Below, in pieces: positions 8,032 to 23,541 of a DNA stretch of 64,000 bases. Source of the stretch: Kaistia geumhonensis (GTDB taxonomy: Bacteria; Pseudomonadota; Alphaproteobacteria; Rhizobiales; Kaistiaceae). Made by a program: the position numbers and the translations under genes. Below the pieces are notes generated by a model that did not search any database, was not told the origin of the DNA, and saw nothing but the letters and a program-made list of their open reading frames with translations. Where the stretch lies: contig NZ_JAUSWJ010000001.1 of assembly GCF_030815145.1 (NCBI RefSeq), forward strand, positions 1,860,001 through 1,924,000, given 5' to 3'. Numbering within the stretch: position 1 is the stretch's first letter; each line of letters begins with the position of its first letter.

Positions 8032-8532
8032 ATGACCGATACCCCTGCCGCGAAGCCCGCCAAGACCGCCGCCGCCAAGGCCGCCAAGGCTTTCGAGGCG
8101 CCCTTCGAGGCGTTCAGCTTCAACTTCCCGACCGCCGAGATGCCGGCTGCCTTCCGCGACCTCGCCGAGAAGACGCTGTCCGGCAGCAAGGACGCCTACG
8201 CCAAGATAAAGGCTGCCGCCGAAGAGGCGACCGAGGCCTTCGAGGACAGCGTGGAGACGGCGCGCAGCGGCATGGTCGAGCTCAGCCACAAGTCGCTCGA
8301 CGCGGCCAAGGTCCACAGCGACGCCTCCTTCGCCTTCGCGAAGGAGCTGCTCGGCGCCAAGACCTTCGCCGAAGTGCTCGAGCTGCAGATGGGCTTCGCC
8401 CGCAAGCAGACCGAGGCCTTCGCGGCCCAGGTCAAGGACATGCAGGACTTCTCGCAGAAGTTCGTCGCGGACGCCTCGCGTCCGGTCAAGGCGAGCGTCG
8501 AGAAGGCGCTGAAGGGCACCACGCTCAACTGA
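8032..8532 (+). CDS. Phasin family protein
   Basis: A 166-residue phasin with an Ala/Lys-rich N-terminal stretch (KTAAAKAAKAF), a hydrophobic FEAFSFNFPTAEMP segment, and the long amphipathic helices of the family (KTLSGSKDAYAKIKAAAEEATEAF; AKTFAEVLELQMGFARKQTEAF). It should bind the surface of polyhydroxyalkanoate granules. The ATG follows AAGGAGAGCCGAC, a strong ribosome-binding site. It is likely transcribed alone: an inverted repeat precedes it and a strong intrinsic terminator follows it. It is a distinct paralogue of the phasin at 7365, longer at both ends. Confidence 0.92.
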   Translation: MTDTPAAKPAKTAAAKAAKAFEAPFEAFSFNFPTAEMPAAFRDLAEKTLSGSKDAYAKIKAAAEEATEAFEDSVETARSGMVELSHKSLDAAKVHSDASFAFAKELLGAKTFAEVLELQMGFARKQTEAFAAQVKDMQDFSQKFVADASRPVKASVEKALKGTTLN

Positions 8533-8692: not shown

Positions 8693-8769
8693 GCAGCTGT
8701 AGCTCAGTTGGTTAGAGCGTCGGATTGTGGCTCCGAAGGTCGGTGGTTCGAGCCCACCCAGCTGTACCA
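8693..8769 (+). tRNA. tRNA-His (GTG), CCA encoded
   Basis: A complete cloverleaf is visible. The acceptor stem is GCAGCTG (8693-8699) with CAGCTGT (8759-8765). The D arm GCTC...GAGC follows TA at positions 8-9. The anticodon stem TCGGA/TCCGA encloses loop TTGTGGC with anticodon GTG (8727-8729). The T arm is GGTGG/CCACC, and CCA is encoded at 8767-8769. The discriminator base is A73 and the first pair is G1:U72, so position 73 cannot pair with a G at -1 as in most bacterial tRNA-His. This is the known alphaproteobacterial variant recognised by a co-adapted HisRS. Confidence 0.97.
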
Positions 8770-13509: not shown

Positions 13510-14322
13510 CTAGACCCCCACAGCATCCTTCAGCATCCGCCGGTTCTTGGCGACCGCGGCGGCGGGGTCTCGGCCGGCTTCCTCGGATTCCTCCTCGACG
13601 ACCAGCCACCCGTTGAAGTTCGGGGCTTTCGCGACGGTTGCGACGACGGCGGGAATGTCGCAAGCGCCCGCGCCCAGCATCGCCCAGTGGCCGGAGGCAT
13701 CGACATCCTTCAGGTGCAGGTAGCGGATGCGCGTGGCATAGGTTTCGAGCGTATCGAGGATGTCCTGACGGCCGCGCAGGATGTGGCCCGTGTCGGGCAC
13801 CCAGCCGATCAGCGTCGGGTCGGTCAGCTCCATGATGCGGTCATAGTCGGCGCGGGTCTCGAGCAGCGTGTCGTGGTGCGAACTCGGATGGAAGGCGACC
13901 GTGACGCCATGCCGGCGGCCGGCCTCGCCGGCGGCGTTGTAGAAGCGCGCGGCGGCGGCGAACTTCGCCTCGCGCGGGCCGGGCGACATGACAGTCGCGC
14001 TGCCGAGCGACAGCACCGCGCCGGGAAAGGCGGCGGTGAAGGCAAGCGCCCGCTCGACCATCGCGAGATCCTCCGCCAGCGCCGCCTCCTCGGTGAAGCC
14101 GGACGAGCTGCCGCAGGCGAAGGCGACGAGCACGAGGCCGTTTTTCGCCAGCGCCTCGGCGAAGGCGCCCGGACGGCCGGCATAGGCGCCGATCATGGTG
14201 TCGGTGATCTCGATGCCCTGGTAGCCGGCCGCGCCGATCGCCGCGAGGAGATCGTCCGGCTCGCCGCGGAAGGCATCGCCCAGCATCTCCCAGGTATAGG
14301 TCTGGCAGGCCGGCTTCAGCAT
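13510..14322 (-). CDS. Sugar phosphate isomerase/epimerase (xylose isomerase-like TIM barrel)
   Basis: A 270-residue AP-endonuclease-2-family TIM barrel: YQGIEITDTMIGAY near the N-terminus, VAFHPSSHHDTL, GWVPDTGHILRG, IRYLHLKDVDASG and WLVVEEESE, supplying the His/Glu/Asp metal ligands of sugar epimerases, isomerases and inosose dehydratases. It is the last gene of an operon with an ABC importer, so it probably isomerises or epimerises the imported sugar. The family also includes the cofactor-free decarboxylase OiaC, so decarboxylation is possible. The start at 14322 has AAAGG upstream; an ATG at 14340 that overlaps the permease stop in ATGA would add six residues. Confidence 0.82.
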   Translation of the reverse strand: MLKPACQTYTWEMLGDAFRGEPDDLLAAIGAAGYQGIEITDTMIGAYAGRPGAFAEALAKNGLVLVAFACGSSSGFTEEAALAEDLAMVERALAFTAAFPGAVLSLGSATVMSPGPREAKFAAAARFYNAAGEAGRRHGVTVAFHPSSHHDTLLETRADYDRIMELTDPTLIGWVPDTGHILRGRQDILDTLETYATRIRYLHLKDVDASGHWAMLGAGACDIPAVVATVAKAPNFNGWLVVEEESEEAGRDPAAAVAKNRRMLKDAVGV

Positions 14323-14336
14323 GGGTGCACCTTTCG

Positions 14337-15173
14337 TCATTCCTTCACCGCGCCCTGCGTCAGTCCGTCGATGATGTGGCGCTGGAAGAGCAGCACCAGG
14401 AGAACCAGCGGGATCGTCACCACGATCGAGGCGGCGGCGATGTCGCCCCACGGGATGTAATGGAGATTGGTGAAATTCGCGATGCCGACCGGGACGGTCT
14501 GGTGGTCGATGTTCGAGGTGAAGGCCAGCGCGAACATGAACTCGTTCCAGGCCGCGATGAAGGCGAGTAGGCCCGTCGTCACGAGGCTCGGAGCCGAGAT
14601 CGGCAGGATGATCCGCCAGAAGAGCCCGACGGTCGAGCAGCCGTCCATGCGCGCCGCCTCGTCGATCTCGCGCGGCAGCGTGTCGAAATAGCCGAACATC
14701 ACCCAGGTCACGAGCGGCACGCCGAGCGCGACATAGGTGATCACGAGGCCGGAATAGGTGTCGAGCAGCGCCAGGTCGGAGGCGAGCAGATAGAGCGGGC
14801 CGACGATCGCGATCTGCGGGAACATCGATACCGAGAGGATCGCGGCGAGGATGCCGAACCGGCCCTTGATGTCGAGGCGCGACAGGGCGAAGCCGGCCAT
14901 GGCCCCGACCGCCAGGCAGAACAGCGTCGTGAAGCCGGCGACGATCAGCGAATTGCGCAGATAGAGCTGGAAGCTCTTCTCGACGAATATGTTCGCGTAG
15001 TGGTCGAAGGTCAGGGGCGAGGGGATGAAGGACGGCGTCGCGGCCGTCAGCTCGACATCGTTCTGGAACGAGGTCGAGAGCTGCCACAGGAAGGGGGCCG
15101 CCGACCAGAAGAGGATCAGCAGGCCGCCGCAATAGATGAGGATCGTCTGGAGACGGTTGCGCTCGTAGATCAT
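14337..15173 (-). CDS. Carbohydrate ABC transporter permease (MalG/CUT1 type)
   Basis: A 278-residue inner-membrane permease with six predicted helices and the EAA loop REIDEAARMDGCSTVGLFWRIILPISAP, which contacts the ATPase. It is the second permease of a CUT1 sugar importer, following the MalF-type gene whose stop overlaps its start. No ATP-binding subunit is encoded in this operon, so it probably shares a MsmK/UgpC-like ATPase from elsewhere. Substrate unknown. Confidence 0.93.
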   Translation of the reverse strand: MIYERNRLQTILIYCGGLLILFWSAAPFLWQLSTSFQNDVELTAATPSFIPSPLTFDHYANIFVEKSFQLYLRNSLIVAGFTTLFCLAVGAMAGFALSRLDIKGRFGILAAILSVSMFPQIAIVGPLYLLASDLALLDTYSGLVITYVALGVPLVTWVMFGYFDTLPREIDEAARMDGCSTVGLFWRIILPISAPSLVTTGLLAFIAAWNEFMFALAFTSNIDHQTVPVGIANFTNLHYIPWGDIAAASIVVTIPLVLLVLLFQRHIIDGLTQGAVKE

Positions 15174-16105
15174 CGCGGCGCCCGCATCTTGCGCATGATG
15201 AAGAAGCCGAAGCCGATCGCGATCAGCGCCTCGGTGATGAACATCGCGGTCGCCATGGCCGAGCCGTAGCCGAACTGCAGCGCCGAGAAGAGCGTCTTGT
15301 AGGACAGCGTCGACAGCGTCTCGGTCGCGTCGGCGGGGCCGCCGCCGGTCAGCACATAGACGAGGTCGAAGACTCGGAAGGCGTCGAGCGCGCGGAACAT
15401 GCCGGCGATCAGGAGCGTCGACATCAGGAGCGGCAGCCGCACATGGATGAAGGTCGCGACCGGTCCGGCGCCGTCCATCCGCGCCGCCTCGATCAGCGAC
15501 TTCGGGATGGTCTGCAGCCCGGCCATCAGGAGAAGCGCCATGAAGGGCGCCGTCTTCCAGACATCGGCGATGATGATCGTGGTCATCGCGTGGTCGATCG
15601 AGCCGTACCAGTTGATGTTCTCGGCGATGAGGCCGCTGCTGCGCAGCGCCCAGTTGACGACGCCATACTGGCCGTCGAACAGCCAGCCGAACATCTTGGA
15701 CGTGACGACCGTCGGCATCGCCCAGGGCACGAGCATCGCGGCGCGCACGATGGAGCGGCCGGCGAAATGCTCGACGAGGAGCAGCGCCATGACGAGGCCG
15801 AGGATGGTCTCGGCGAGGGTCGAGACGACGGTGAAATAGACGGTGTGCCGCCAGGCGTTCCAGAAGAGATCGTCGCCGAGCAGCTGCGCGTAGTTCTCGA
15901 GGCCGATGAAATCGTGCTCCTGCGTCACCAGCGAGGTGTTGGTGAAGGAGAGCCAGAGGCCGTTCAGGATCGGGTACAGCGACACCGAACCGAGCGAGAC
16001 GGCGATCGGCAGCAGGAACAGCAAGGGCGCGAGACGCGGCATCGACCAGCCGGCCCCCCGAGGGGGACCGGCCAGCGCCGCGGCCGGGAGGGACCGCGCT
16101 GTCAT
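15170..16105 (-). CDS. Carbohydrate ABC transporter permease (MalF/CUT1 type)
   Basis: A 311-residue permease. A short cytoplasmic N-terminus leads into six helices, with the EAA loop KSLIEAARMDGAGPVATFIHVRLPLL and the typical TGGGPADATETLSTLSYKT stretch near the C-terminus. It pairs with the MalG-type permease downstream (ATGA-type overlap) and with the binding protein upstream, whose TAA overlaps its ATG by one base in TAATG. Together they form an import complex lacking a local ATPase. Confidence 0.93.
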   Translation of the reverse strand: MTARSLPAAALAGPPRGAGWSMPRLAPLLFLLPIAVSLGSVSLYPILNGLWLSFTNTSLVTQEHDFIGLENYAQLLGDDLFWNAWRHTVYFTVVSTLAETILGLVMALLLVEHFAGRSIVRAAMLVPWAMPTVVTSKMFGWLFDGQYGVVNWALRSSGLIAENINWYGSIDHAMTTIIIADVWKTAPFMALLLMAGLQTIPKSLIEAARMDGAGPVATFIHVRLPLLMSTLLIAGMFRALDAFRVFDLVYVLTGGGPADATETLSTLSYKTLFSALQFGYGSAMATAMFITEALIAIGFGFFIMRKMRAPR

Positions 16106-17418
16106 TACTTCGAGACGATCGCGTCGATCTTCTTGGCTGCCGCCTCCAGCTCCTCCTTCACCTTGCCGGTGACGAGGGCGCGGGAGATGCCGGACTGGGC
16201 CGCCAGCGAGACCTGCGGATATTTCGGCGTCTTCGGGCGCGGCGTTGCGCCGGTGAACACCGTCTTCAGCGACTGCATGAAGGGCTGCTCCTTGCCGAGC
16301 GTCTCGTTGTCGAAGACGGCCGGGCGGGTCGGGGCGATGCCCATCTTGAGGGCGAAGCGGAGCTGCGTCTCCGGCGAGGCCATCCAGGTGAGGAACTCGA
16401 CGGCCGCTTCGCGCTGCTTGGTGTTGGCGTTGATGCCGTACTGGTAGCCGCCGAGGCAGCCGGCGCTCTTGCCACCCTCGAAATGCGGCAGCGGGGCGAC
16501 GCCGACCTTGCCGGGCACCTTGGACGACTTCGCGTCCTGCGCCAGGACATAGACATAGGACCAGTTGCGCAGGAACGCCGCCTCGCCGCCGGTGAAGGGC
16601 GCGCGCGAGGGCTCCTCGTCCCATGAGAGCACGTCCGCCGGGCTGATCTTGTACTTGTTGATCGTGTCGTGAAGGAACTGGATCGCCTCGACGGCCTTGT
16701 CGCTTGCCAGCGTCGAGGAGCGGCCGTCGCCGGCGAGGATCGAGGCATTGTTGGAGGCGAGCACCGAGACGGCGTCGCAGACCAGCACTTCCGCCTGCTT
16801 GCCCTGCCACAGGAAGCCGAACTTCACCTTCTTGTCGGCCTGCAGCTTCATCGCCTGCTCGGTCATCTCGGCCCAGGTCGTCGGAACCTTGGCGCCGATC
16901 TCGTCGAGCAGATCCTTTCGGTAGAACATCATGCCGGAGTCGATGCCCCAGGGCAGCGCGGTCAGCTTGCCGTCATAGGTGCAGGCATCGATGGTGCCGT
17001 CGAAGAACTGGTTCTTCACGCCGCCGAAATACTCGTCGAGCGGCAGCGCCCAGCCGGCAGCGGCGAATTCGGCGATCCAGATCACGTCCTGCGTGAAGAC
17101 GTCGGGCGAGCCGTTTTTGCGGGCGAGCTGCTGGACGAGCGCCTGATGCACCTCGGTCGAGGAGCTCGGCGGCGGCAGCTCGATATATTTGACGAAGATC
17201 TTGCTCTGCGACTCGTTGAAGGTGTCGACGACGTTGCCGATCGACTCGGTGCCCTGGAACTTGGCGCTGGCGAAGCTGATCTCGACACGGTCGGCGGCGC
17301 GCGCGAGGCGCGGCATGCCGAGCGCGGCGGCGCCCGCGGCGACGCCGGCGCCCATCATGAACTGACGGCGCTGGATTCCACCCTTCCCGCTGGCGGGGGT
17401 CTTCGGTGTCCTGGTCAT
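16105..17418 (-). CDS. Sugar ABC transporter substrate-binding protein (CUT1, Tat-type leader)
   Basis: A 437-residue extracytoplasmic binding protein. The leader IQRRQFMMGAGVAAGAAALGMPRLARA carries a twin arginine and suggests Tat export. The mature part has the cluster-1 binding-protein pattern (IEVSFASAKFQG-like first strand, ALPWGIDSGMMFYRKDLLDEIGA, FTGGEAAFLRNWSY). The start at 17418 follows GGGAGAGAGG; the reading frame runs further upstream but without a good start. It is the first gene of the importer operon and has a DeoR-type repeat about 80 bases upstream, so it is probably controlled by the DeoR regulator at 20741. Confidence 0.93.
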   Translation of the reverse strand: MTRTPKTPASGKGGIQRRQFMMGAGVAAGAAALGMPRLARAADRVEISFASAKFQGTESIGNVVDTFNESQSKIFVKYIELPPPSSSTEVHQALVQQLARKNGSPDVFTQDVIWIAEFAAAGWALPLDEYFGGVKNQFFDGTIDACTYDGKLTALPWGIDSGMMFYRKDLLDEIGAKVPTTWAEMTEQAMKLQADKKVKFGFLWQGKQAEVLVCDAVSVLASNNASILAGDGRSSTLASDKAVEAIQFLHDTINKYKISPADVLSWDEEPSRAPFTGGEAAFLRNWSYVYVLAQDAKSSKVPGKVGVAPLPHFEGGKSAGCLGGYQYGINANTKQREAAVEFLTWMASPETQLRFALKMGIAPTRPAVFDNETLGKEQPFMQSLKTVFTGATPRPKTPKYPQVSLAAQSGISRALVTGKVKEELEAAAKKIDAIVSK

Positions 17419-17498
17419 TTCCTCTCTCCCTTTGGTGCCGGCGATCATTCGCCAGCTGTTTTTTGCATCATGCTTGCCGCGCTCCTCGGCAGCGTCAA

Positions 17499-17522
17499 GC
17501 ATAAAGACGCAAAATAACGCAA
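17499..17522 (-). promoter_or_regulatory. Candidate DeoR operator upstream of the importer operon
   Basis: Read on the minus strand this holds TTGCGTTATT followed ten bases later by TTTTGCGTCTTTATGC. The 16-base word TTTTGCGTCTTTATGC recurs exactly at 20657-20672, beside the DeoR gene. Direct repeats one helical turn apart are typical of DeoR-family operators. Location about 80 bases before the binding-protein start fits promoter control. Confidence 0.6.
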
Positions 17523-17540
17523 TCGTGCGGACTGGATCGC

Positions 17541-18293
17541 CTAGAAGGCGCCCAGCCCGCCATTGATCTCGATGATCTCGCCGGCGATGAACCCGGCCGC
17601 GGGGGATGCGAGATAGAGCACAGCGGCGGCGACATCGGCCGGCGTGCCCTCGCGTCGCATGGGGGTGCGCTCGACCGTCGCCTTGCGTCCCTCGGCGGTC
17701 GAGAAGCGGTCGTGGAACTGCGTGCCGATGAGGCCGGGGGCGACGCCGTTCACGCGCACGCCGTCCGGGCCGACCTCCTTGGCGAGCGCGCGGACGAAGG
17801 TCATCACGCCGCCCTTGGAGGCCGCATAGTGCGATGCGCCGGCGCCACCGCCGTCATGGGCGGCGAGCGAGCTCATCAGCACGATCGCGCCCGATTTCGC
17901 CTCGGTCATCTGCGGCACGACCGCCCTCGCCAGCAGGAAGGCGCTGGTGAGATTGACGGCGAGCGCCTCGTTCCAGAGCTGCAGCGAGCACTCGGCCACC
18001 TTGCTGCGCTTCAGCAGCCCGCCGGCATTGCCGACGGCGATGTCGATGCGTCCGAAGGCGGCATTGGTCCGCGCCACCGCCTCGGCCACCGCGTTTTCGT
18101 CGGTGGCGTCGGTCTGAAGCGCAAGCGCCTTGGCCTCGCCATGCGCGGCGACGATCTCGGCCGCCTGCGCGCCGCTCGAGGCATAGGTGAAGGCGACGCG
18201 GGCGCCCTGCTCGATGAACGCTTCGACGATGCCGCGGCCGATGCCCGAGGCGCCGCCCGTGACCAGCACCGTCTTCCCGGAGAAGCCGGTCAT
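17541..18293 (-). CDS. Short-chain dehydrogenase/reductase
   Basis: A classical 250-residue SDR: cofactor motif TGGASGIG near residue 13, VGNAGG, catalytic Ser in LMSSLAAHD and YxxxK in HYAASKGG, ending EIIEINGGLGAF. It should oxidise or reduce a sugar, sugar acid or aldehyde with NAD(P). It lies two bases after the LacD-like aldolase gene in the kinase-aldolase-SDR operon. One plausible role is to oxidise or reduce an aldehyde released by the aldolase, but acting on the intact sugar is equally possible. Confidence 0.9.
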   Translation of the reverse strand: MTGFSGKTVLVTGGASGIGRGIVEAFIEQGARVAFTYASSGAQAAEIVAAHGEAKALALQTDATDENAVAEAVARTNAAFGRIDIAVGNAGGLLKRSKVAECSLQLWNEALAVNLTSAFLLARAVVPQMTEAKSGAIVLMSSLAAHDGGGAGASHYAASKGGVMTFVRALAKEVGPDGVRVNGVAPGLIGTQFHDRFSTAEGRKATVERTPMRREGTPADVAAAVLYLASPAAGFIAGEIIEINGGLGAF

Positions 18294-18295
18294 GC

Positions 18296-19324
18296 TCAGG
18301 CCTCCTGCCAGCTGGAATACCAGCCGTCGGGGAAGGCGGCGGCGAGCTGGTCGCCGGTCACCGCCGGGGCGTAGGGACGGCCATGACGGCGCGTGACCTC
18401 GGTCAGCTCGGCGAGGCGGGCGGCCGCCTCCCTGGCCGCGACGGCGCGCGCCGCCGGGTCGCGGGTCGAGACCGCGTCCTGCCAGATCGAGCGCCCCCCG
18501 AGGAAGCCCGAGGCGCCGGCGTCGCAGGCGACTTCCACCTGCGTGCGGAATTCCTCGTAGCCGACGCCGGCCGAAAGGATGACCCAGGGCTGCACCATGC
18601 CGTCATTGAGGCGCTGGCAGGCCTTGGCGGCGGCGCGGCGGCCCTCCGGCGTGGAGACGTCGCCGGGGAACTCCACCTTCAGCATGTCGGCGCCGAATTC
18701 GGCCGCGATATGCGCGGATTCGATGATCCCCTCGACGCGGCGCTCCTTCCAGGCCGTGCTCTTGGTGTCCTCTCCCGGCAGCGCGTACCAGATCGGCTCG
18801 ACGACGAAGGGCAGCGACTGCTCGGCGCATTCGGCGACGAGATCGCGCACGACCTGGCGCTGCGCCTCGGCCGTCTTGGCGTCGGAGCGGTAGAACCAGA
18901 GCAGCTTCTCCATATCCGCGCCGAGCATCTTGATCTTGCGCGTCGTCCAGTGGGGGCGGAAGCGGGTGCGGCGCTCGCCGTCGACCGTGTCGAAGCCCTC
19001 GCCCTCGATCGAGGCGATGAGGCCGACAGAACCGGGAAGGGCGCGCGAGGCGATGACCTGCGCCAGGCTGAACTGCGCTTCCAGCAGGAAGGCGCTGGCG
19101 ACCGGCGCGACTGCGTTGACCAGTTCGAGCTTGGCGTCGACGGCCTGCTGGTAGCTGACCTTCGAGCGGTCGTCGGCCAACATGTCCTTGAACGAGATCA
19201 GATGGTCGAGCGCGAGGACGACGAAGAAGCCGTCGCTGGTGGTGATGCGCTGCAGACCGCGCATCTTGCCGGGGTCGAGCGAGGGCATCGAGCCCTGAAG
19301 GCGGGCGGGCGCGGCAGAGGTCAC
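18296..19324 (-). CDS. LacD/YihT-like class I aldolase (tagatose 1,6-bisphosphate aldolase family)
   Basis: A 342-residue class I aldolase. LALDHLISF, RFRPHWTTRKIKMLGADMEKLLWFYR, PFVVEPIWY, MLKVEFPGDV (the lysine expected to form the Schiff base) and WVILSAGVGYEEF align with LacD, the tagatose 1,6-bisphosphate aldolase, and with YihT, which splits 6-deoxy-6-sulfofructose 1-phosphate. It lies between an ADP-dependent-kinase-family gene and an SDR gene, so it probably cleaves the ketose phosphate made by the kinase. An ATG at 19288 (MPSLDPGKM) is an alternative start. The substrate may be tagatose-, fructose- or sulfofructose-like; sequence alone does not decide. Confidence 0.82.
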   Translation of the reverse strand: MTSAAPARLQGSMPSLDPGKMRGLQRITTSDGFFVVLALDHLISFKDMLADDRSKVSYQQAVDAKLELVNAVAPVASAFLLEAQFSLAQVIASRALPGSVGLIASIEGEGFDTVDGERRTRFRPHWTTRKIKMLGADMEKLLWFYRSDAKTAEAQRQVVRDLVAECAEQSLPFVVEPIWYALPGEDTKSTAWKERRVEGIIESAHIAAEFGADMLKVEFPGDVSTPEGRRAAAKACQRLNDGMVQPWVILSAGVGYEEFRTQVEVACDAGASGFLGGRSIWQDAVSTRDPAARAVAAREAAARLAELTEVTRRHGRPYAPAVTGDQLAAAFPDGWYSSWQEA

Positions 19325-19370
19325 GGAAGTCTCCTTGGGAACGAAATCGAAGGGGGTGAGAGGTTCGGGC

Positions 19371-20624
19371 CTAGCTGCCCGGCGGCTGGCAGTGAACGAG
19401 AAGCGTCCCGGCCAGGAAGGTGTCGCCGAGCCCGATCGTGCTGGCGGGCCGACTCAGCCAGGGAGCCGGACAAGTGACGGCGGCATAGCCATCGGCCGCT
19501 CCGCCGAATTGCGGCGGCGGCGAAAAGACGGCATCGGCGGGGATGTCCTGCGGCCGGACCGGCCGGCCGGCCGCGGCGCGGGCACCGGCCAGCACGCAGC
19601 CGGCGAACAGCGCCCTCGCCTCGCGCTCGGCGTCGCCCGTCGTGACCGCGAGCGCATAATCGTCGGCATGGACGCAGAGCCGCGCGAGGCCATGGCGGCG
19701 CGCAAACGCAGCCATCGGGCCGGGCTCGGCCGGCCCCTTGCCGATGACGCGCCATTCGGACAGGCTCATGCCGACCGAGGTGACGAGCCCGGCGAGGCTG
19801 CCGAGGATCATGGCCGGCAGATGCGGCCGGTGGCCGTAGTCGGCGAGTTCGATATGCACGAAGCCGAGTCCGGCGGCGCGCCAGCCGCGCGCGAGATCCG
19901 CGACACGGGCCAGCGTTTGCGGCAGCAGGTGATCGGGTGTCGAGACGAGGCTGGAGATCGCCGCGGCGCCGGCATTGCGGGCCATGTCGAGGCTGAGCGC
20001 CGCGAAGGCGGGGTCGTTTTCGGGCACGTCGTCGACAAGGCGCACGATGACGCGCGTCGAGCGGCTCACGACCTCGCCGGCAACCTCGGTTCCGGCGGTG
20101 GACTCGAAGATCCAGTGACGCGCCTTGGCGCGCGCGGGGTCCGGCGCGATCTCCGCCAGCGGGCGGGCAGACCCGCCCTCCGCGATCAGGATGCCGGGAT
20201 CGAGCACGGCAAGCTGCGCCGGGCTGCGATCGGCCAGCGCCAGAAGGGCCGGCGCGCCGAGAATCCCGAAGGCCTTGGCGATCTGGGCCGACGTGCCGCC
20301 GGCACCGATGTCGTGCGGCAGGTTCTCCGCCAGCCAGGCGTCGCCGGTCGGCCAGTCGATGCTGTATTCGCCGCCGCGACCGGCGCGGATACGGGCAAGG
20401 AGTTCTCCGGCAAGATCGCGCGCCGGCAGCGGCGCATCGGGCGCGAACAGGAGGACGGCCTTTTCGAGGCGGACGGAGGCGTCGACGAAGGCCGAGAAGC
20501 CGAGCAGCACCGGCCGCGCCGCCCTGGCGAGCGAGGACATCGCCGCCGCGGTCTCGGCAAAGCGCCGACGCCAAAGGCGATCGAAACCCTCGAGATCGGC
20601 CGAGACCCGGTCGGCGGCACCCAT
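19371..20624 (-). CDS. ADP-dependent sugar kinase family protein (ADP-PFK/GK-like)
   Basis: A 417-residue ribokinase-fold protein whose best resemblance is to ADP-dependent phosphofructokinase/glucokinase. The signs are DIGAGGTSAQIAKAFGILGAPALL for nucleoside or substrate binding, FVHIELADYGHRP like the HxExA metal segment, and TIGLGDTFLAGTLL, the GxGD catalytic-base motif near the C-terminus. The family's NxxE magnesium motif appears as SLSE (in SVGMSLSEW), with the Asn replaced. It starts a kinase-aldolase-SDR operon, with GAGGA before the ATG, divergent from the DeoR regulator. It likely phosphorylates a ketose or ketose phosphate; ADP use is assumed from the family and untested here. Confidence 0.72.
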   Translation of the reverse strand: MGAADRVSADLEGFDRLWRRRFAETAAAMSSLARAARPVLLGFSAFVDASVRLEKAVLLFAPDAPLPARDLAGELLARIRAGRGGEYSIDWPTGDAWLAENLPHDIGAGGTSAQIAKAFGILGAPALLALADRSPAQLAVLDPGILIAEGGSARPLAEIAPDPARAKARHWIFESTAGTEVAGEVVSRSTRVIVRLVDDVPENDPAFAALSLDMARNAGAAAISSLVSTPDHLLPQTLARVADLARGWRAAGLGFVHIELADYGHRPHLPAMILGSLAGLVTSVGMSLSEWRVIGKGPAEPGPMAAFARRHGLARLCVHADDYALAVTTGDAEREARALFAGCVLAGARAAAGRPVRPQDIPADAVFSPPPQFGGAADGYAAVTCPAPWLSRPASTIGLGDTFLAGTLLVHCQPPGS

Positions 20625-20639
20625 GCGCGTTTCCTCTTT

Positions 20640-20680
20640 TGCGCTTTTATTCTGTGTTTTGCGTCTTTATGCGTTTTTAG
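20640..20680. promoter_or_regulatory. DeoR-type direct repeats in the divergent kinase/DeoR promoter region
   Basis: Three copies of an 11-base unit are present on the plus strand: TGCGCTTTTAT (20640), TGCGTCTTTAT (20660) and TGCGTTTTTAG (20670). The middle copy shares 16 bases, TTTTGCGTCTTTATGC, with the site upstream of the ABC importer operon. It lies between the divergent kinase (start 20624) and DeoR (start 20741) genes, suggesting control of both. Confidence 0.6.
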
Positions 20681-20740
20681 GATGATCCATTGGCATCGTC
20701 AAGCGACTTCCGGTAGCATGACGGCAAAAGGAGATTCCGA

Positions 20741-21523
20741 ATGAAGAGACGGTCCGCCGTCGCCCTGCCGCTCAGCCGCAGGACGGAAATGCTGCGTCTC
20801 GTCGCCGAGCAGGGCAGCGTTTCCGTGCCGGAACTTGCCGATTTGTTTCGCGTTTCGACCGACACCGTCCGCCGCGATCTCGACTCGCTGGCCAGCAGCG
20901 GTGCGGTGCTCCGGACGCATGGAGGCGCCGTGCGCGCCGAGGGCGCCGGGATCGTTCCGGTCGCCGACCGCATCGTGACGCAGGCCGACGCCAAGACGCG
21001 GATCGCCGCGGCGGCGGCGCAGCTCATCGAGAGCGGCGAGACGCTGATGGTCAATGGCGGCTCGACGACGCTGGCCTTCGCGCTGATGCTTCCGGCCGAC
21101 CGCTCCGTCGGGCTCATCACCAATTCGGTGTCGATCCTCGACCAGATCGACACCAGCGCCTTCACCAATGTCTATGCGATCGGCGGCGAGCTGTTCAGCG
21201 TGTCGCGGGTCATGATCGGGCCGGTGATCTTCCCCCATTCCGACCGCATCCATGTCGACACCGCCGTGATCGGCGTCCGCTCCATCCACCCCTCGCGCGG
21301 CATCTCGACGGCGACCGTCGCCGAGGCGGCCATGATCTCGGAGATGATGCGGGCGGCGCGGCGCACCATCGTCGTCGCCGATGAGACCAAGTTCACGCAG
21401 AGCGCCTTCGCGGCCATTGCGCCGCTCTCGGAGATCGACATCCTCGTCACGAGCGCGACGCCGCCCGAGCCGATGGCCGAGGCGCTCGCCGAGGCGGAGG
21501 TTCAGGTGATCGTCGCGCCCTGA
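20741..21523 (+). CDS. DeoR/GlpR family transcriptional regulator
   Basis: A 260-residue DeoR repressor. The N-terminal winged helix-turn-helix reads RRTEMLRLVAEQGSVSVPELADLFRVSTDTVRRDL over residues about 13-47. The C-terminal sugar-phosphate sensor domain has INGG-type text VNGGSTTLAFA, TNSVSIL, IGGELF and VVADETKF. Such regulators are usually released by a phosphorylated pathway intermediate. GGAGATTCCGA precedes the ATG. It is divergent from the kinase-aldolase-SDR operon and is the obvious regulator for that operon and for the importer, both of which carry the shared repeats. Confidence 0.93.
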   Translation: MKRRSAVALPLSRRTEMLRLVAEQGSVSVPELADLFRVSTDTVRRDLDSLASSGAVLRTHGGAVRAEGAGIVPVADRIVTQADAKTRIAAAAAQLIESGETLMVNGGSTTLAFALMLPADRSVGLITNSVSILDQIDTSAFTNVYAIGGELFSVSRVMIGPVIFPHSDRIHVDTAVIGVRSIHPSRGISTATVAEAAMISEMMRAARRTIVVADETKFTQSAFAAIAPLSEIDILVTSATPPEPMAEALAEAEVQVIVAP

Positions 21524-21529
21524 GGGGCG

Positions 21530-22291
21530 TCAGACCCAGCCGCCGTCGATGACATAGGACTGGTTGGTGCAGGCGGACGCCTCGTCGGAGGCGAAGAACA
21601 GCACCGGCCGCGCGATGTCCTCGACCTGCAGCGGCCGCTTGAGGCACTGGCCCTGCATCAGGTCGGCGACGCCCGCCGGCGTCAGATAGAGGCTGACCTG
21701 CCGCTCCGTCATGATCCAGCCGGGCACGACCGAGCAGACGCGGATGTTGAACGGCCCGAGATCGCGCGCGAGACTGCGCGTCAGCCCGACGATCGCCGAT
21801 TTCGCCGTCGTGTAGCCCGGCATGCCGCCGCGCGACTGCATCCAGGAATTGGAGCCGATATTGACGATGGCGCCGCCGCCTGCCGCCTTCATGTCGCCCA
21901 TCACGGCTTGCGCCGCGAAGAACTGGTGCTTGAGATTGACCGCGAGGCGCTGGTCCCAATAGTCCGGCGTCACGTCCTCGATGGCGTGGCGCTCGTCATG
22001 GGCGGCGTTGTTGATGAGGATGGTGATCGGCCCGAGATGCTCGCGGACGCGGCCGATCGCGGCGCGCAGCGCTTCGATATCGGTGATGTCGCAAGGCTCG
22101 AAATGAACGGTCCCCTCGCCTTCCAGTTCGGCGACCAGGGCCCTCGAGCCCGTCTCGTCGATGTCGAGGAAGCCGACCTTCGAGCCCTGGGCGACGAAAT
22201 GGCGGACGATGGAGGCGCCGATGCCGCCGCCGCCGCCGGTAACGAGCACGGTGCGGTTCCTGAGGCTCGGATAGGTCGCGATGTCACTCAT
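21530..22291 (-). CDS. SDR resembling NAD-dependent D-xylose 1-dehydrogenase (XylB-type)
   Basis: A 253-residue SDR. The N-terminus ATYPSLRNRTVLVTGGGGGIGASI, the segment FLDIDETGSRALVAELEG, INNAAHDERHAIEDVTPDYWDQRLAVNLKH, catalytic NIGSNSW, GYTTAKS and the end SYVIDGGWV closely follow Caulobacter-type xylose dehydrogenase (starts AIYPSLKGKRVVITGGGSGIG; ends EYWIDAGWR). It would oxidise an aldopentose or similar sugar to the lactone. It follows the Gfo/Idh gene by eight bases, so the two probably form an operon, convergent with DeoR. The substrate could differ from xylose. Confidence 0.83.
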   Translation of the reverse strand: MSDIATYPSLRNRTVLVTGGGGGIGASIVRHFVAQGSKVGFLDIDETGSRALVAELEGEGTVHFEPCDITDIEALRAAIGRVREHLGPITILINNAAHDERHAIEDVTPDYWDQRLAVNLKHQFFAAQAVMGDMKAAGGGAIVNIGSNSWMQSRGGMPGYTTAKSAIVGLTRSLARDLGPFNIRVCSVVPGWIMTERQVSLYLTPAGVADLMQGQCLKRPLQVEDIARPVLFFASDEASACTNQSYVIDGGWV

Positions 22292-22299
22292 AATGGTCC

Positions 22300-23433
22300 T
22301 CAGGCGGCCTGCAGCGCCGCGGCCTCGGCCTCGGAGAGGGCCGGCGGGCGGTCGATCGTGGTGGTGAGAGGACGCGGCTTGCCTTCCGCGGCGGACAAAA
22401 GGATCGCCTCCATGATCTCGAGCACATGCAGCGCCAGCTTGCCCGACGCGCGCGACGCGCGCTTCCCGGCGAGCGAGGCGGCGAGATCGGCGACGCCGAG
22501 CATGCGGTAGTTGGCGCGATCCGGCTTGTCGAAGGGCCAGTTGTGTCGCCCGTTGAGCAACTGGTCCGTCGGCATCTCGCGCCAGTCGCCACCGCGTTCG
22601 CTGAGCGCCACCGTGCCGCCGAAGGTGTCGGGGTCGGGAAGGCGAAGCGACCCTTCGGTGCCGTGCAGCTCGATCGGATGGTTGCCATGCCGGAACACGT
22701 CCCAGCTCATGCCGACGGCGACCACGGCGCCGCTCGCGAATTCTAGCGCGGCATGGACCGTGGTCGGCGTTCCGACCGAGAAGCGGGTGCCGGATGTCGG
22801 GCCGGGCGCGGTGATGAGCCGCTCGGCCTCGCCCGTCGTCGCGATCGCCGTCACGCGCCGCGCCGGACCGAGCAGGGTCGCGAGCATCGTCAGGTAATAG
22901 GGGCCCATGTCGAGCACCGGACCGGCGCCGGGCTGGTAGTAGAACTGCGGATTGGGGTGCCAGTGCTCCATGCCGCGCGACATCATGAAGGCCGTCCCCG
23001 TCACCACGCGACCGATGGCGCCCTCGTCCATGAGCCGCCGCGCCATGCGGCCGGCCGCGCCGAGAAAGGTGTCCGGCGCGCAGCCGAGCGCGAGCCCGTG
23101 CGCTTCCGCCATATCGACCAGTCGCCGACCCTCGTCGAAGGAGACCGAGAGCGGCTTTTCGGTGAAGACGTGCTTGCCGGCGGCGAGCGCGGCCGAGGAA
23201 ATGTCGAAATGCGCGGCCGGGATGGTGAGATTGAGGACGAGATCGACCTCGTCCGAGCGGATCAGCTCATCGACCGCAAGGGCGCGCAATCCATAGGTGT
23301 CAGCCCGCCGCGTCGCCGCCTCGGGAACGAGATCGGCGCAGGCCGTCAGCTCGACGCCCGGGAACATCCTGGCGTTGCGCAGATAGGTCTCCGCTATATT
23401 GCCGCAACCCACGATGCCGACGCGAAGCCGCAT
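22300..23433 (-). CDS. Gfo/Idh/MocA family oxidoreductase
   Basis: A 377-residue two-domain NAD(P)-dependent sugar dehydrogenase. The Rossmann part is VGIVGCGNIAETYL, and EKPLS carries the conserved lysine of the EKP motif near residue 95. The C-terminal beta-sheet domain includes MEHWHPNPQFYYQPGAGPVLDMGPYYL. Family members oxidise or reduce hydroxyls of sugars, inositols and their derivatives. The start at 23433 places MRLRVGIVG directly at the fold; an upstream ATG at 23451 is possible. It is the first gene of a two-gene operon with the XylB-like SDR, suggesting stepwise sugar oxidation. Substrate unknown. Confidence 0.88.
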   Translation of the reverse strand: MRLRVGIVGCGNIAETYLRNARMFPGVELTACADLVPEAATRRADTYGLRALAVDELIRSDEVDLVLNLTIPAAHFDISSAALAAGKHVFTEKPLSVSFDEGRRLVDMAEAHGLALGCAPDTFLGAAGRMARRLMDEGAIGRVVTGTAFMMSRGMEHWHPNPQFYYQPGAGPVLDMGPYYLTMLATLLGPARRVTAIATTGEAERLITAPGPTSGTRFSVGTPTTVHAALEFASGAVVAVGMSWDVFRHGNHPIELHGTEGSLRLPDPDTFGGTVALSERGGDWREMPTDQLLNGRHNWPFDKPDRANYRMLGVADLAASLAGKRASRASGKLALHVLEIMEAILLSAAEGKPRPLTTTIDRPPALSEAEAAALQAA

Positions 23434-23541
23434 GATCGTCCAACCCGCCATTCGCAGCGCGACGGCCGGATGCCTGTCGCCGCCGGCATGGATGCAACAT
23501 TTTGCGGCTCTCTGCAAGAATCATCGGTGCTGCCCGCAGGC

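Follow-up and report, generated by a model that had tools for sequence, protein, structure and literature searches.

A kinase of the ADP-PFK/GK family and a LacD-family aldolase in a probable sugar import, phosphorylation and cleavage cassette of Kaistia geumhonensis

The 64,000-nucleotide stretch of the Kaistia geumhonensis genome analysed here (contig NZ_JAUSWJ010000001.1, positions 1,860,001 to 1,924,000; hereafter the window) carries a minus-strand gene block in which a sugar kinase of the ADP-PFK/GK family stands next to a class I aldolase of the LacD family and the genes of an ATP-binding cassette (ABC) importer. We consider it probable that these genes form an import-phosphorylate-split cassette, in which the kinase acts on a ketose-like sugar and the aldolase splits the product into dihydroxyacetone phosphate (DHAP) and an aldehyde. 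Our data show that both proteins belong to the families named, that kinase and aldolase genes recur as neighbours in other genomes, that either half is exchanged for non-orthologous substitutes, and that the kinase has lost residues of the fructose 6-phosphate pocket. PMC7948494 already reports that the kinase family has members in bacteria; no published operon or pathway for them was found in the open-licence literature, and one may exist elsewhere.

The kinase gene (19371-20624, minus strand) encodes 417 residues and matches PF04587 at 51 bits against a cut-off of 27. In a search of PDB sequences with a profile built from seven kinase relatives, all 14 matches were ADP-dependent kinases or reconstructed ancestors. 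An AlphaFold2 model calculated from a 43-row alignment reached a predicted local distance difference test score (pLDDT) of 96.2, and in a Foldseek search with this model ranks 1-22 were all ADP-GK/PFK chains (E 3.9e-24 to 1.5e-16); members of the ribokinase superfamily appeared only after rank 22, the first being a guanosine kinase at E 2.5e-8. Profile and predicted fold together indicate that the window kinase is a true member of the ADP-PFK/GK family. The first-pass annotation had named this family and suggested a structure-based search, in case another ribokinase subfamily proved closer; the Pfam, PDB-profile and Foldseek results bear out its assignment, the nearest folds being ADP-dependent kinases.

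The adjoining aldolase gene (18296-19324, minus strand; 342 residues) matches PF01791, the DeoC/LacD superfamily, at 87.6 bits (cut-off 23.8) and PRK12858 at 225.4 bits (cut-off 184), and falls below the LacD equivalog TIGR01232 for tagatose-bisphosphate aldolase (77.9 bits, cut-off 432.2). Its top PDB match is 8tnf, a DUF2090-named protein (146 bits), followed in second to fourth place by YihT/SFP aldolases (97-100 bits), with LacD also among the matches; for the codes 8tct, 8tcd and 8tnf no relevant paper was found in the open-licence literature. K140, E176 and K216 are invariant in 16 aligned rows. Family profiles and PDB matches thus agree with the earlier view that the kinase is coupled to a LacD/YihT-type aldolase. 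As a separate observation, a look-alike cassette in another genome (L115, 5890-9575) places a distant LacD relative beside a short-chain dehydrogenase/reductase (SDR) and two proteins that by eye resemble a kinase of the PfkB type and an aldolase of the HpcH type.

The pairing of kinase and aldolase recurs well outside Kaistia. Scanning genome contigs with a single peptide pattern yielded 121 stretches that encode kinase relatives. From the best 80 of these we obtained 78 loci, in which aldolase neighbours were scored by tblastn and the counts redone by script. Three kinds of aldolase were found near the kinase, together accounting for 67 of the 78 loci, far above expectation for a gene occurring about once per genome. 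In 25 loci, from Pseudomonadota, Verrucomicrobiota, Actinomycetota, Chloroflexota and Dormibacterota, the partner is a LacD relative 37-250 bp from the kinase; in three of these loci (L011, L013 and L029) importer, kinase and LacD alone make up a co-directional block. The partner in 36 loci is a member of a family that we call HYP4, which does not occur in the window, at distances of 130 bp to 5.6 kb (34 within 1.4 kb, two at 3.3 and 5.6 kb); in L032 HYP4 is present only as a fragment at the contig start. In six further loci, from Bacillota, the partner is a class II aldolase at a distance of 81 bp to 3.4 kb, and the one such partner scanned is of the PRK08185/ketose-bisphosphate-aldolase type.

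A similar picture emerged among 41 related genomes, seven of which hold the kinase, in ten copies. Four copies lie beside a close LacD, and no close LacD in these genomes is found away from a kinase; another five copies have HYP4 at a distance of 0.25-6.5 kb. Thirteen of the 41 have distant LacD relatives only, none near a kinase; second-tier LacD relatives in five kin genomes sit in other loci and give no hint of a substrate. Two loci, L009 and L047, hold two kinases each, one with LacD and the other with HYP4. In Kaistia soli (L009, 9941-21194, and L111, 950-13010) a LacD-type and a HYP4-type kinase cassette share one neighbourhood. In a wider sample of 289 alphaproteobacterial genomes the kinase was found in four, namely the window's own and three carrying a lone kinase. 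These lone ADP-PFK/GK-family kinases (L101, 8134-9537; L102, 8293-9717; L103, 8151-9578) belong to genomes of 1.6-2.3 Mb, have no recognised sugar cluster around them and retain two motifs known from archaeal enzymes, N-x-N-x-D and GGQ. The first-pass annotation had described the family as rarely set in bacterial catabolic operons; kinase-aldolase clusters nevertheless occur in several phyla, although in this alphaproteobacterial sample the kinase is rare. The co-conservation that it wished to see surveyed is present, since the genes co-occur in other genomes.

HYP4 proteins have about 338 residues; Pfam scans of three members and an NCBIfam scan of one returned no match. Foldseek with a HYP4 model returned 130 matches at E <= 0.001 (best E 1.5e-7), the first 50 of which comprise ADH synthase, LsrF, LacD, class I fructose-bisphosphate aldolase and N-acetylneuraminate lyase. 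Three features are invariant in 22 rows, K225 in strand 6 (223-227), E185 in strand 5 and a GR pair in strand 8, at what we take to be the aldolase positions. HYP4 therefore models as a candidate Schiff-base class I aldolase, a TIM barrel with a strand-6 lysine. The family also occurs apart from the kinase: 11 of the 41 related genomes have HYP4, six of them without the ADP-PFK/GK-family kinase, as do four of the 289 alphaproteobacterial genomes, none with that kinase. We compared ten HYP4 loci without it, nine from HYP4 genomes lacking the kinase and one around the second HYP4 copy of genome G017, with G024 left out. A PfkB kinase lies 0-104 bp from HYP4 in nine of the ten (three of these PfkB proteins were profile-scanned); the remaining locus, L117, lies at a contig start and shows no PfkB. 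This HYP4-associated PfkB is absent from L001-L096 at E 1e-15. In a quick tree of the 78 kinases the aldolase partner changes at least four times against a minimum of two, with long branches that leave single placements unsure. Each half of the kinase-aldolase unit thus seems to be exchangeable. The HYP4-PfkB loci (L097-L100, L104-L107 and L110), some in alphaproteobacterial genomes of 1.4 Mb, often include a ribose-type ABC importer, in several cases an FGGY kinase and in L099 a class II aldolase/adducin-type protein, and represent a second candidate sugar cassette.

To compare active sites, residues of the fructose 6-phosphate-bound ancestral kinase AncMsPFK, as given in PMC7948494, were mapped by hand through the PDB-profile alignment onto 43 kinases (alignment A2), of which 20 are LacD-type, 12 HYP4-type, 4 class II-type and 7 without a known aldolase. 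All 32 LacD- and HYP4-type rows retain the equivalents of D36, E90, GG, R206 and D471, both letters of HXE, the Glu of N/DXXE and the Asp of GXGD. The HXE and GXGD motifs are complete in all 32, the window kinase included, and the first residue of N/DXXE is Ser in 25 rows, again including the window, and Asn in seven. With either donor, ADP or ATP, these motifs would bind the transferred phosphate. The N32, N34 and Q116 equivalents are kept in only 1, 0 and 0 of the 32 rows, respectively, and are S44, F46 and T111 in the window kinase. As a control, the three lone alphaproteobacterial kinases retain N32, N34 and Q116 in 3/3 cases but not K179. The loss of these three contacts suggests that fructose 6-phosphate is an unlikely substrate of the LacD- and HYP4-type kinases. 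It also bears on the reading that the enzyme is an ADP-dependent glucokinase or 6-phosphofructokinase of ordinary glycolysis, merely placed beside an aldolase, which shared family membership, the kept equivalents of the sugar contacts D36, E90 and GG, and a binding protein related to trehalose/maltose-binding proteins would otherwise fit. Besides the lost contacts, three different aldolase partners and the exchange with PfkB argue for a joint kinase-aldolase pathway, and we regard a role in ordinary glycolysis as unlikely.

Aldolases of the LacD superfamily, like class II ketose-phosphate aldolases, cleave ketose 1-phosphates or bisphosphates with release of DHAP. The most likely reaction of the kinase is therefore phosphorylation of a free 2-ketose, or of an equivalent compound, at the C1 hydroxyl. 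In the import-phosphorylate-split scheme that we favour, the ABC importer would bring in a sugar or sugar alcohol, which in Kaistia the SDR, Gfo/Idh and TIM-barrel enzymes described below may convert to a free 2-ketose or similar keto-sugar. The kinase, judging from its partner enzymes, would phosphorylate the hydroxymethyl group beside the carbonyl to give a ketose 1-phosphate, and the LacD-family Schiff-base aldolase, by the chemistry familiar from its family, would split this into DHAP and a short aldehyde, with DeoR presumably regulating the genes. More tentatively, and with somewhat less than even confidence, we propose a widespread bacterial ketose pathway in which a branch of the ADP-dependent kinases, perhaps using ADP, makes the ketose 1-phosphate and the HYP4 class I aldolase can replace LacD. 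The cassette offers a testable role in bacteria for a kinase family known chiefly from archaea and animals, and HYP4 is a candidate aldolase family left unnamed by the Pfam and NCBIfam scans made. The substrate of the kinase-aldolase pair would define a sugar route common to Kaistia, rhizobia, Verrucomicrobiota, Actinomycetota and perhaps Bacillota; were ADP the donor, ordinary bacteria would have an energy-sparing sugar kinase step.

Several observations weigh against this scheme. First, 11 of the 78 loci have no LacD, HYP4 or class II aldolase (L021, L067, L070, L071, L074, L076-L078, L080, L082 and L085); L021 is cut at a contig end, and several others have flanks and still none. The second kinase copy of G017 (L094) likewise has no aldolase within 4.2 kb around it. 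In L067 (323-3774), from an Acidimicrobiaceae metagenome-assembled genome, the kinase comes after two genes whose products fall under their equivalog cut-offs: a DapA-like lyase, which may be a fourth lyase partner, and an enolase-superfamily protein resembling sugar-acid dehydratases. Second, the kinases of the set are not all alike, as class II-type rows keep N34 in 3/4 and lack the HXE His in 4/4. R195, which lies close to the R212 column, does not vary among the 32 LacD- and HYP4-type rows, so that these kinases may still bind an anionic group, and the loss of K179 is no evidence because the lone kinases have lost it too. Third, at least four kinds of sugar-binding protein accompany the kinase, which makes one substrate for all unlikely; the substrate may vary. 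Lastly, confidence in the HYP4 model is moderate, at a pLDDT of 76.8.

Within the window, all the genes named by the first-pass annotation have open frames, those from the kinase to the TIM barrel on the minus strand (20624 to 13510). Minus-strand neighbours overlap by 1-4 bases or are separated by 2-46 bp, which fits a single operon. Downstream of the aldolase lie a 250-residue SDR (17541-18293; PF13561, 205.6 bits; top NCBIfam model PRK07231 at 210 bits, slightly below its cut-off of 215), the importer's sugar-binding protein (16105-17502; PF01547, 154.5 bits), two permeases (15170-16105, start read at 16105 and PF00528 scanned from 16075; 14337-15173, PF00528) and a xylose-isomerase-like TIM barrel (13510-14340; PF01261, 89.9 bits), all on the minus strand. 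A DeoR/GlpR-family regulator, matched by PF00455 and PF08220, diverges from the kinase (20741-21523, plus strand); when the window and 96 loci were compared, members of its blastp cluster occurred in 71 of these 97 sequences. The kinase-DeoR intergenic stretch holds short inverted repeats only, which differ among the three loci compared. Beyond 21523 the conserved neighbourhood extends to a second SDR, D-xylose 1-dehydrogenase-like (21530-22291, minus strand; NF053674 at 324 bits, cut-off 400), and a Gfo/Idh/MocA oxidoreductase (22300-23517, minus strand; PF01408 and PF22725; best PDB match DgpA1, 77 bits), with close relatives of both in the clusters nearest to this one, L072, L009 and L002. 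Elsewhere in the window and unrelated to the sugar operon, a phasin-like protein (by eye; 8032-8532) adjoins a tRNA-His gene (8693-8769).

The sugar importer of the first-pass annotation stands in part: a binding protein and two permeases are present but no ABC ATPase was found among the ten cluster proteins scanned; the related cluster on the Aureimonas AU20 plasmid has an ATPase of the UgpC type. The nearest solved relatives of the window binding protein are trehalose/maltose-binding proteins, with SmoF tenth, and SmoF is the first solved relative of SBP19, another kinase-associated binding protein from L024. Across the binding proteins the type of the nearest solved relative varies (trehalose/maltose, SmoF, chitin-oligosaccharide or ribose), which does not settle the substrate. 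Relatives of the window protein occur in 28 of the 78 loci, and orthologues at 59-62% identity serve both LacD-type loci and HYP4-type loci (L012, L037-L039 and L044), which suggests that one compound is probably processed with either aldolase.

The accessory enzymes are less widely shared. IolE-like TIM-barrel relatives were found in three of the 78 loci and in AU20, so the TIM barrel is not core. Relatives of the first SDR occur in 33 loci, those above 60% identity in three plus AU20, and the co-directional blocks of L011, L013 and L029 lack an SDR; the SDR is thus not core either. Relatives of the second SDR occur in 32 loci, two above 50% identity, and those of L072, L009 and L002 are 53-96% identical; Gfo/Idh relatives occur in 12, 11 of them at 45-90% identity, and in the verrucomicrobial L014 a Gfo/Idh gene also lies beside DeoR. 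Four actinobacterial loci carry a ManA-like protein (46 bits, cut-off 116, for the one scanned). In the order of isomerisation, phosphorylation, cleavage and oxidation or reduction proposed earlier, the isomerisation step is conjectural: the top family model of the TIM barrel is the dehydratase IolE (TIGR04379) and its best PDB match is also IolE (3cny), so that the isomerase label is only a guess and the protein may be a dehydratase or an isomerase.

These matches raise the possibility of a parallel inositol-type route, in which Gfo/Idh and IolE-like enzymes would oxidise and dehydrate a cyclitol and the kinase and aldolase would stand in for IolC and IolJ, acting on a deoxy-keto-gluconate-like acid. 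It would explain IolE and IolG as the best models of TIM barrel and oxidoreductase, the DUF2090-named top match of the aldolase and the Gfo/Idh relatives in 12 loci, and the invariant R195 could bind a carboxylate. We find it quite unlikely, as the scores are well below the equivalog cut-offs (IolE 87.6/290, IolG 65.4/355), the IolE-like gene is confined to 3/78 loci, and the genome has a 672-residue frame with a DUF2090 domain elsewhere, to which the window aldolase gives no tblastn match at E 1. That frame is presumably an IolC fusion. Inositol catabolism is therefore not supported.

A sulfoglycolysis operon resembling the sulfo-Embden-Meyerhof-Parnas (sulfo-EMP) route, with the kinase replacing YihV on sulfofructose and the aldolase replacing YihT, is very unlikely and not supported: the YihT/SFP matches of the aldolase and the SmoF matches of the binding proteins point that way, but the aldolase scores higher with 8tnf than with YihT, no GH31 protein (PF01055, the YihQ family) was found in the whole genome, the scan of ten cluster proteins gave no PfkB (YihV) or PF07221 (YihS) member, no sulfo-specific gene was recognised among the partly scanned neighbours, and sulfo-EMP2 (PMC9594981) relies on PfkA- and FbaA-type enzymes. 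The three PF07221 proteins of the genome all lie elsewhere, and the first-pass annotation was right to note no YihV, YihS or YihQ homologue here.

Compared with known systems, the Kaistia clade has accessory enzymes similar in kind to those of the inositol IolG-IolE-IolC-IolJ route, whereas the window proteins fall below the Iol cut-offs and the DUF2090 protein is encoded elsewhere. In the tagatose route, where we take LacC to be the kinase partner of LacD, a kinase likewise precedes a class I aldolase of the LacD superfamily; the window aldolase lies far below the LacD equivalog cut-off. YihV and YihT of the sulfo-EMP route (PMC9594981) follow the same order, but the window cluster has no YihS-, YihV- or YihQ-family protein among the ten scanned, and its kinase comes from a family other than those of LacC and YihV. 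With the archaeal and animal ADP-dependent PFK/GK enzymes (AncMsPFK, 6XIO; PfGK, 1UA4) the window kinase has in common the predicted fold, the GXGD catalytic Asp, HXE and the beta-phosphate Arg. It differs from them in its low identity (16-20% in the fold search), in the Ser that opens N/DXXE, in the changed fructose 6-phosphate contacts N32, N34 and Q116, and in its setting within a catabolic operon together with an aldolase.

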